Below the pieces are notes generated by a model. That model was not told the DNA's origin. It searched no databases and saw only the letters and a list, made by a program, of their open reading frames with translations. From a virus, in the IMG/VR virus record IMGVR_UViG_3300009103_001982, positions 1 to 33,739 of that record: a DNA stretch of 33,739 bases. One strand, written 5' to 3'. Each line of letters starts with the position of its first letter. Positions within the stretch are counted from its first letter, which is position 1. This document shows positions 17,432 to 24,583 of this stretch, one piece after another. The translations under genes were made by a program, and so were the position numbers.

Positions 17432-18163
17432 ATGTCAGAAGAAAAAGAAGACAAAAAATCACCAGAGGAAATTCAAGCTGAACTAAAACTAAAAGACGCT
17501 GAAACACGCAAAACGGAAGCCGAAGCAAGAAAGACCGAAGCTGAAGCAGCGAAAGCGGAGTTTGATGCTCACAGCGCTCAGATAAGTCACGAAAAAGCTC
17601 TAATAGCAAGAAAAAAAGAGCTGTCCATTGACGAAGAAAACCATCTATATAGATTTTCTGGATCCGTCGGAGAAGCTTCGGTAAGAAAATGCATCACAAA
17701 GCTCACAGAGTGGTCTAGGCTTAGTCCTAAATGTGATATAGAAATAGTTTTTTCTTCACCCGGTGGTAGCATCATTGATGGCTTTGAATTGTTTGATTTT
17801 ATCCAAGACCTAAGGTTGGCAGGGCACAACATAACGACTGGCTCATTAGGAATGGCTGCCTCTATGGCGGGAATTCTTCTTCAGGCCGGTGACCATAGAT
17901 GGATCGGGCACCAATGTTGGTTAATGATCCACAGGGCCGCGTTTGGAGCAATTGGGAAAACATACGAAGTAGAAGACGAAGTAAAGCTTGTAAAAAGAAT
18001 CGAGGGAAGAATTTTAGATATATTTACAAAAAGGTCAAAGCTTACAAGGTTAAAAATTAAAAGAAACTGGGACCGCAAAGACTGGTGGATCGACGCAGAT
18101 GAATGCGTAACCTATGGCCTAGTAGATGAAATTAGAGGGATGATGCCAGAGTCTAAGAAGTAG
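17432..18163 (+). CDS. ClpP-like serine protease with N-terminal coiled coil
   Basis: 243 residues. Residues 1-60 are charged with a KTEAEARKTEAEA heptad-like repeat, so an N-terminal coiled coil not found in ClpP. The ClpP/crotonase domain follows: FSSPGGSIIDGFELFD (107-122), Ser144 in MAASMAG, His167 in MIHRA and Asp217 in RKDWW, then YGLVDEI. All triad members are present. Phage ClpP-like proteins often act as prohead proteases or in host-protein turnover, but no capsid gene is near. AAGGAGG precedes the start. A strong terminator ends the unit. Confidence 0.85.
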   Translation: MSEEKEDKKSPEEIQAELKLKDAETRKTEAEARKTEAEAAKAEFDAHSAQISHEKALIARKKELSIDEENHLYRFSGSVGEASVRKCITKLTEWSRLSPKCDIEIVFSSPGGSIIDGFELFDFIQDLRLAGHNITTGSLGMAASMAGILLQAGDHRWIGHQCWLMIHRAAFGAIGKTYEVEDEVKLVKRIEGRILDIFTKRSKLTRLKIKRNWDRKDWWIDADECVTYGLVDEIRGMMPESKK

Positions 18164-18188
18164 ATCAGCAATACTTACAGGAAGCAAG

Positions 18189-18223
18189 TACCCTTCGTTT
18201 TTATAAACGGAGGGTATTTTTTT
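18189..18223 (+). terminator. Strong Rho-independent terminator after the ClpP-like gene
   Basis: TACCCTTCGTTT (18189-18200) pairs with AAACGGAGGGTA (18205-18216) in 12 bp with one G-U, 4-base loop, then seven Ts (18217-18223). Confidence 0.9.
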
Positions 18224-18229
18224 AATAAG

Positions 18230-18235
18230 TGTAAT
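18230..18235 (+). promoter_or_regulatory. AGTGTAAT motif 7 bases before ATG 18243
   Basis: TGTAAT in AAGTGTAATC, exactly 7 bases from the start codon and just after a terminator. No -35 at normal spacing. Confidence 0.4.
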
Positions 18236-18242
18236 CATAAAC

Positions 18243-18416
18243 ATGAAGGACTTAGAGCTTAATGGAATTAGAGTTAGAGTCACTAAATACAAAGTCATAA
18301 TTTACGACAATGACGACAAAATGGGAATAGAACAGGCTGAGGTTATAGCTAGTTATTTAAGGGATGAAGGATTTATAAAAAAAGACGAATTTCCTATAGA
18401 AATAATTAAGCCTTAA
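18243..18416 (+). CDS. Unknown small protein, 57 aa
   Basis: ATG 18243 lies 7 bases after TGTAAT. The protein begins with a beta-hairpin-like RVRVTKYKVIIYDNDDK and continues with a helix GIEQAEVIASYLRDEGF, then EFPIEIIKP. The repeated beta-alpha-beta suggests a small compact fold. First of a run of short genes to 19550. No function known. Confidence 0.5.
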   Translation: MKDLELNGIRVRVTKYKVIIYDNDDKMGIEQAEVIASYLRDEGFIKKDEFPIEIIKP

Positions 18417-18455
18417 TTATAATATAAATAAATATTAAAAATTATTGTCAAATAT

Positions 18456-23539: not shown

Positions 23540-23887
23540 ATGCAAGTTGTAGTAATTTACAATCCAAAAAAGAAGTGCTTAGAAGTTAAGGGTAGGAAAG
23601 AGAATGCCCGTTCTTATGTCGATAAGCCAGTGGTGCTTAAACGTACCCACGCTTTAGAAATGGGAGAAGTTTCCATTACCAAGCAAACACTTACTGGAAA
23701 AGTAGATTTAGACGACATTCGCTCTTTGGAAGAAAAGAAAAGCCCTCGCCCGAAGTGGAAGCACCAAGTGAGGGTTAAGAGGCAGAAGGGGAAGACCCCG
23801 AAACTTGTAAATTTAAAAGACGGGAAAGATATTGATCAATATAATCCCAGAGTCTTCTTAGAAGATTCTAAAATTTTTGTTCTTTAA
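23540..23887 (+). CDS. Unknown basic protein, 115 aa
   Basis: Starts one base after the preceding stop. Beta-strand opening (MQVVVIYNPKKKCLEVKG), then a highly basic middle (KKSPRPKWKHQVRVKRQKGK) and an ending FLEDSKIFVL. Likely small and nucleic-acid-binding. No family recognised. Confidence 0.5.
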   Translation: MQVVVIYNPKKKCLEVKGRKENARSYVDKPVVLKRTHALEMGEVSITKQTLTGKVDLDDIRSLEEKKSPRPKWKHQVRVKRQKGKTPKLVNLKDGKDIDQYNPRVFLEDSKIFVL

Positions 23888-23895
23888 AATAATTT

Positions 23896-24261
23896 TGCTG
23901 GTTGATCACCAGCAAAGGGTGTGACCGAATAAACTGCTGTCGCGGCAGTTAAGGTGCAGCGTCTATAGGTAGGAGATTACCGTCTCTGGGGACTTATAAA
24001 GGCTGGCTCAAAGTAGGGTTTCTCACGAAACTCAAGCTGTGACCCCGAAACGATGGAGGTAAATGAGATTCCTCCCACCCATTAATTTTGAAATTGAGCG
24101 GATAGCGATAGGCTTTGTGTCTTACCTCTCGAACCAGATGAGGTAGTCCTTGTAGTGTTAACTCTAATTCGGTTAAACAAATAGCCTTACGCCGTGACCC
24201 TCTCTTTTTCAGCCTAAAGGCGGTGAACTTTCTTAACGGATTTGTTCACCGTCTTTTTTTT
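23896..24261 (+). ncRNA. Large structured non-coding RNA (about 365 nt) with terminator
   Basis: The region has no coding frame but many stems: TGCTGGT/ACCAGCA at 23896-23914 (7 bp), GTTTC/GAAAC at 24018-24031, GGAGG/CCTCC at 24055-24075, TACCTC/GAGGTA at 24123-24145, and a 10-bp terminator stem before eight Ts. The dense hairpins, lack of ORF and ending terminator strongly suggest a stable RNA on the plus strand. No tmRNA, RNase P, 6S or group I/II core is recognised. GOLLD- or ROOL-like phage RNAs are possible relatives, unproven. Confidence 0.65.
24219..24261 (+). terminator. Rho-independent terminator of the large RNA
   Basis: GGCGGTGAAC (24219-24228) pairs with GTTCACCGTC (24244-24253) in 10 bp with one G-U, then eight Ts (24254-24261). 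Confidence 0.85.
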
Positions 24262-24262
24262 C

Positions 24263-24290
24263 TTGAAATAATAAAAAAAAACCGTAATCT
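24263..24290 (+). promoter_or_regulatory. Promoter, leaderless type, twin of 7718-7745
   Basis: TTGAAA (24263-24268), 16-base spacer, TAATCT (24285-24290), 8 bases to GTG 24299. The 14 bases TAATCTTAATTAAG are identical to those before ATG 7754, with identical spacing to -35 and start codon. Confidence 0.65.
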
Positions 24291-24298
24291 TAATTAAG

Positions 24299-24583
24299 GT
24301 GAAAAACTTTTTTGAGCCAGACGACGAGCACGATTTTCATGATATGGAAAATGTTCCTCAATATACTATTGAGCGCTACTTTGCTCAGGTTGAAGAAATA
24401 CTGCTTATTTTTGAAATGCAAGAGTTTTTTGTTTCTGACGAGACTCAGGTTCAAGATTTTAGCTTTACCCCACAGGAATTTGAGCTTTACAACCACAGGC
24501 TTAAAGCAAAGTATGGTGTCGAAATGACTAAAGATAGTTATATCTGGGAGATAGCAGAGGAAATTCATGAAAACCAATTCTAA
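24299..24583 (+). CDS. Unknown acidic protein, 94 aa
   Basis: GTG start placed by the promoter at 24263-24290. Acidic and aromatic (FFEPDDEHDFHDMENV, TIERYFAQVEEILLIFEMQEFF), mostly helical. Its end overlaps the next gene by 17 bases. No function recognised; the strong acidity could mean a DNA-mimic or inhibitor-type phage protein, which is speculation. Confidence 0.55.
   Translation: MKNFFEPDDEHDFHDMENVPQYTIERYFAQVEEILLIFEMQEFFVSDETQVQDFSFTPQEFELYNHRLKAKYGVEMTKDSYIWEIAEEIHENQF

Follow-up and report, generated by a model that had tools for sequence, protein, structure and literature searches.

The window analysed in this study is a stretch of 33,739 nt that spans positions 1 to 33,739 of the IMG/VR virus record IMGVR_UViG_3300009103_001982. 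On its plus strand lie about 365 nt, 23896-24261, which raise the question of whether they encode a folded RNA, to which family such an RNA belongs, and whether it serves the adjoining gene or acts on its own. The region was described as gene-free in a preliminary description, and the longest frames inside it indeed reach at most 33 aa. A coding explanation was rejected on account of these short frames and of a 3' part whose length differs between related loci (0 to ~126 nt); a coding frame conserved across the region was not found. The region folds at -119.1 kcal/mol, compared to -99.6 ± 5.3 kcal/mol for shuffled sequences (z = -3.7), and none of 100 shuffles folds as well. It had also been called far denser in hairpins than its surroundings, which is only moderately true: of about 90 tiles of 366 nt across the window, with 30 shuffles each, four have a better z score than this one (-2.7, rank 5), even though none of the tiles listed folds at a lower energy. 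Three of the four tiles ranked above it contain tRNA genes. Another dense tile, near 18084-18450, is explained by a strong terminator together with small ORFs.

Although no known family had been recognised at first sight, the covariance model of the Rfam family manA (RF01745) matches 23896-24085 on the plus strand. The match covers the full length of the model (positions 1-192) with 59.8 bits, above the gathering cut-off of 55.2. Ordinary manA loci score 155-197 bits with the same model, and the low score of the window RNA therefore marks it as a distant member. GOLLD, ROOL, HEARO and RNase P RNA are stand-alone structured RNAs, for which a search had been suggested. None of them, nor any other Rfam family besides manA, matches in 23880-24320 up to E 1, and the window RNA is also unlike them in being short (~365 nt). 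To guard against a chance manA match, a second covariance model (R2) was built from the 12 window-like RNAs alone. In a search of 245 kb, R2 recovered the manA RNAs of L122, L025, L044, L169 and L013 with E values from 4e-8 to 3e-4; the matches in ordinary cyanophages fall at the manA coordinates given by Rfam, and nothing was matched besides its own members and ordinary manA RNAs. The homology is thus valid in both directions. The first 190 nt of the gene-free stretch are almost certainly a manA homologue of a divergent subtype, and the stretch as a whole is a true folded phage RNA, distantly related to the known manA family.

The likeness to manA extends to its parts. The window RNA, which is likewise phage-borne, possesses hairpin P1, followed by a covarying closing helix of the form GGGNR/YNCCC, the core GUGACYGAAUAA ... 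UUAAGGUG, and the terminal hairpin. The central arm is the exception. Here the RF01745 alignment deletes part of the branched consensus, and several consensus pairs are non-standard in the window, though the version of the arm found in the subtype covaries by itself; a part of the branched central arm of ordinary manA seems to be missing in this subtype. The wcaG RNA motif (RF01761) is another structured RNA borne by cyanophages, which stands near manA in the phage S-CREM1, but no wcaG match was found in the window.

The structure was evaluated on an alignment (A1) of 12 sequences, namely the window and 11 IMG/VR loci, and comprises 56 pairs. Standard pairs fill 97.3% of the cells and covariation among the homologues is present, with changes on both sides in 14 pairs. 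The covariation score is 0.239, compared to 0.136 in shuffles, and was reached by none of 500 shuffles, figures that somewhat favour the structure since alignment and structure were both drawn on the tested sequences themselves. Slid versions of the structure are at most 46% paired. Hairpin P1 (23896-23914), the presumed transcript start, has four pairs changed on both sides and is 100% paired. So is the closing helix, in which GGGUG at 23917-23921 pairs with CACCC at 24076-24080 (helix 2 of A1) and which occurs in the alignment as GGGUG/CACCC, GGGUA/UACCC and GGGAA/UUCCC. Enclosed by it are hairpin P2 (23932-23950; helices 3 and 4), located in invariant columns inside the GUGACCGAAUAA...UUAAGGUG core, and the P3/P4 arm (23957-24005; helices 5-7), with CAGC/GCUG, UAUAGGU/ACUUAUA and an inner hairpin. 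They are followed by hairpin P5 (24016-24033; helix 8), which is mostly invariant and so yields little evidence of covariation, and hairpin P6 (24055-24075; helix 9), formed by GGAGG/CCUCC with one pair changed on both sides. All five stems proposed in the preliminary description are present: 23896-23914 is P1, 24018-24031 lies inside P5, 24055-24075 equals P6, 24123-24145 forms one arm of the 3' domain described below, and 24219-24253 folds into a stem of 10 pairs with eight T behind it. The helices P2, P3, P4 and the closing helix had been overlooked.

Directly after manA, the subtype continues with UUAAUUU and, in five of the 12 loci, with an additional 3' domain outside the Rfam model (24094-24204 in the window). 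In this domain, helices of variable sequence flank an invariant core, UAGCGAU / CGCCGUGAC, and six of 12 pairs of these helices display compensating changes on both sides among five sequences. A model of this domain (R1) matched only directly 3' of manA in these five loci and nowhere else in the records searched. In L134 the domain is absent and manA runs straight into the terminator. Other modules were observed as well. A further module with the long stem AAATAGCGAGC/GCTCGCTATTT is inserted between manA and the 3' domain at 5540-5668 of L133, and in this locus only. A structured 5' module of ~130-150 nt, with a long closing helix and a changing inner helix, is present in L135 (5731-5865) and matching in L142 and L144, between manA and the promoter-like motif discussed below. 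The optional 3' domain and the extra modules on both sides in some loci indicate that the RNA is modular at both ends. In ordinary cyanophages, 24 of 110 manA loci have a conserved hairpin, GACC-UAAGAUGCA-ACU..AGU-(S)GGGCAGAU-GGUC, right after manA, 10-20 nt from its 3' end (L010, L012, L016, L020, L038 and others) and often followed by a T-run. No Rfam family matches this hairpin, and every occurrence among the loci examined adjoins manA. The 3' domain and the terminator lie outside the Rfam model, while the manA family itself was already known; for the ordinary-locus hairpin and the 3' domain, novelty denotes absence from Rfam 15, not from every published figure.

The 5' end of the RNA is preceded in all 12 loci by a 16-bp promoter-like element, TTGTTCTTTAAAATAA (23877-23892 in the window, plus strand), from which some copies deviate by one or two bases. 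Some 6 nt separate P1 from a candidate -10 box in this element (TAAAAT, 23885-23890), for which no -35 box was recognised. Where the 5' module exists, the element stands before the module and not between module and manA, as a promoter would. The gene upstream of the RNA, which codes for a small basic protein (23540-23887, plus strand), is conserved throughout the 12 loci at a distance of 32-541 nt to the manA core. Its product has no Pfam or PHROG match; the protein is a possible candidate for an RNA-binding partner. This arrangement bears on the reading that the stretch has no transcript of its own and belongs to the upstream operon as its structured 3' UTR with terminator. The constant upstream gene on the same strand and its stop codon, which falls within the promoter-like motif in the window, would agree with a 3' UTR. 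Yet in L134, L135, L140 and L143 other DNA intervenes, which places this gene 245-541 nt from the core, and there the motif stays with the RNA. The motif is also kept in loci with a different gene just upstream; moreover, P1 of ordinary manA is preceded by complete sigma70 promoters. We consider a 3' UTR very improbable.

The 3' end is formed by an intrinsic terminator at 24219-24261 on the plus strand, composed of the 10-pair stem 24219-24253 and the T-run 24254-24261. The terminator is kept in L132, L133 and L134, and a script count over these and the window found three pairs with compensating changes. It is predicted to form at P ~1.0, and no antiterminator or upstream competitor for its 5' arm was predicted. 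A sigma70-like promoter follows at 24263-24290 (TTGAAA 24263-24268, N16, TAATCT 24285-24290). All four loci with the terminator have TTGAA[AC]-N16-TA[AT][AT]CT within 1-2 bases, with a start codon 8-13 nt past the -10 box; judged by consensus score the copy in the window is weak, and the evidence comes from the conservation. In the window the next gene (24299-24583, plus strand; 94 aa) begins with GTG only 8 nt after the -10 box and is thus probably leaderless. Its product has no Pfam or PHROG match, and a homologue at the same place was found in L133 only among the 12 loci. Both the Rho-independent terminator and the promoter right behind it had been noticed before, as had the appearance of a self-contained unit, and this is supported by covariation, by the fixed 5' promoter-like element, and by the conserved terminator with its separate promoter.

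The most familiar alternative is that of a cis-acting leader. In the list of 2010 (Weinberg et al. 2010, PMC2864571), manA was a likely riboswitch, located in what may be the 5' UTRs of metabolic genes. Rfam assigns it the type cis-reg, which is an annotation and not part of the model, and the literature searched on manA, in which no functional experiment was found, describes it as a candidate cis-regulatory RNA. As a leader, manA would be the sensor for a metabolite or another factor, with the terminator 24219-24261 as the expression platform for regulated read-through into 24299 onwards. The order of aptamer-like domain, terminator and gene on one strand fits this reading. So do L140 and L144, in which only 11-13 nt, with neither terminator nor promoter, lie between manA and the start of an ORF, and in these loci, as in L143, L145 and L146 where no clear terminator or promoter separates manA from the next gene, manA would be an mRNA leader. 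Promoters after manA are also rare in ordinary cyanophages; with 5 of 98 loci they are less frequent than in the controls. The scarcity of second promoters in ordinary loci and the relatives with an ORF right behind manA thus allow a cis-regulatory reading as well. Against it stand the conserved promoter that the next gene possesses right after the terminator, and the terminator itself, which is predicted to act constitutively, its 5' arm having no other partner. A comparable terminator is, besides, absent after manA in most other window-like loci; in L135 and L138 a promoter matching 11 of 12 positions lies right before the next gene. The genes directly downstream are also varied, with nine families in the 12 window-like loci and 31 families among the first downstream ORFs of 107 ordinary loci, the largest being single-strand DNA binding protein and transaldolase. 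A leader of this kind seems to us rather unlikely at this locus.

The same variety is seen around individual ordinary manA RNAs, which stand before purL/hsp20 in P-SSM2, after the major capsid gene in MED4-213, P-HM1, S-SSM5 and P-RSM4, and before transaldolase in P-RSM6. In seven ordinary loci tRNA genes lie close behind manA. In S-CREM1 (L122 1716-2144) manA is located inside a tRNA array, with its last annotated base common with tRNA-Asn; an abiF match was observed 30 nt beyond this junction. The place where these RNAs begin is more uniform. A promoter scoring at least 10/12 is found right before P1 in 112 of 118 distinct ordinary loci (95%), compared to 2% at random control places, and a near-perfect TTGACA-N17-TATAAT ends about 6 nt before P1 in 95% of the ordinary loci (L002-L121). 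We conclude that manA RNAs begin at the transcription start. A terminator-like hairpin with T-run lies just upstream of manA in 42 of 123 ordinary loci, often with TTGACA in the loop. The position at the promoter, and the unrelated genes and tRNAs that follow, including the tRNA array of S-CREM1, would also suit a general 5'-end element for any transcript, acting by nuclease protection, RNA polymerase modification or enhanced translation and terminated early in this lineage. The put RNA of phage HK022, which reportedly modifies RNA polymerase, would be an analogue. We regard such an element as improbable here, since the window transcript ends right after the RNA and little is left to protect or antiterminate. 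A general-purpose leader might furthermore occur in several copies, whereas manA was found at a single place in each of 40 phage records, and likewise in 17 contigs apart from one weak partial extra match, and the subtype occurs once per contig in 11 further IMG/VR contigs.

The explanation towards which we lean, by a small margin over doubt, is a divergent manA RNA made as its own transcript and acting through its own fold. The more probable part is that this genome yields the RNA as a discrete, terminated transcript, as predicted from the sequence signals at both ends: transcription would start at P1 (~23896), continue across the manA fold and then the plug-in 3' domain, and end at ~24261, releasing a free RNA of ~365 nt, and the next gene would start from its own promoter. 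The RNA keeps its place in the genome while the downstream genes are exchanged, and ordinary cyanophage manA also begins at a promoter and precedes many unrelated genes or tRNAs; both observations argue for action through the fold and not on one particular neighbour. The RNA would most likely act in trans, through binding to a protein or RNA of either host or phage, with the 3' domain as an exchangeable extra binding module. Action in trans is putative and somewhat short of an even chance, as a free RNA alone does not prove it. A broader proposal, more tentative still, is that manA in general is a modular phage RNA gene acting in trans, always with its own promoter and with exchangeable 5' and 3' domains, never a cis leader, and here terminated as a free ~365-nt RNA. 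Unlike ordinary manA, the window RNA has an extra 3' domain, its own terminator and a separate promoter for the next gene, and the putative short transcript with its extra domain points to a role of manA RNAs beyond that of a switch for the adjoining gene. A constant RNA with changing neighbours, its own promoter-like element, a terminator and plug-in domains are all evidence on the nature of manA. The 95% promoter finding is directly testable in cultured Prochlorococcus phages, e.g., P-SSM2, P-HM1 and P-SSM7.

The 12 loci of the subtype in IMG/VR comprise the window and 11 contigs, and a second, wider and independent pattern gave the same set. Four relatives were found via the upstream gene and none via the downstream gene. 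No close copies at the DNA level were found in cultured phages, with only short, weak matches to Bacteroides phages. Pattern matches in bacterial genomes included three true manA RNAs (L167, L169 and L172), and L169, a Prochlorococcus assembly, may be a phage contig. The carrier contigs, the largest of 158 kb, encode DNA polymerase, DnaB-type helicase, primase, ribonucleotide reductase and collagen-like tail fibres, and their nearest cultured relatives by protein similarity are remote. T4-type Gp23 gave no match in the carriers, a weak test as the control genomes were equally silent. The carrier phages look unrelated to T4. If they are truly non-T4, the subtype extends manA beyond the range of 2010, which consisted of marine samples, gamma-proteobacteria and T4-like cyanophages (PMC2864571). 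Glutamine riboswitch matches were also observed no more than a few hundred bases away from manA in two cyanophage contigs, at 1194-1242 and 1707-1803 of L061 and at 312-360 of L016.
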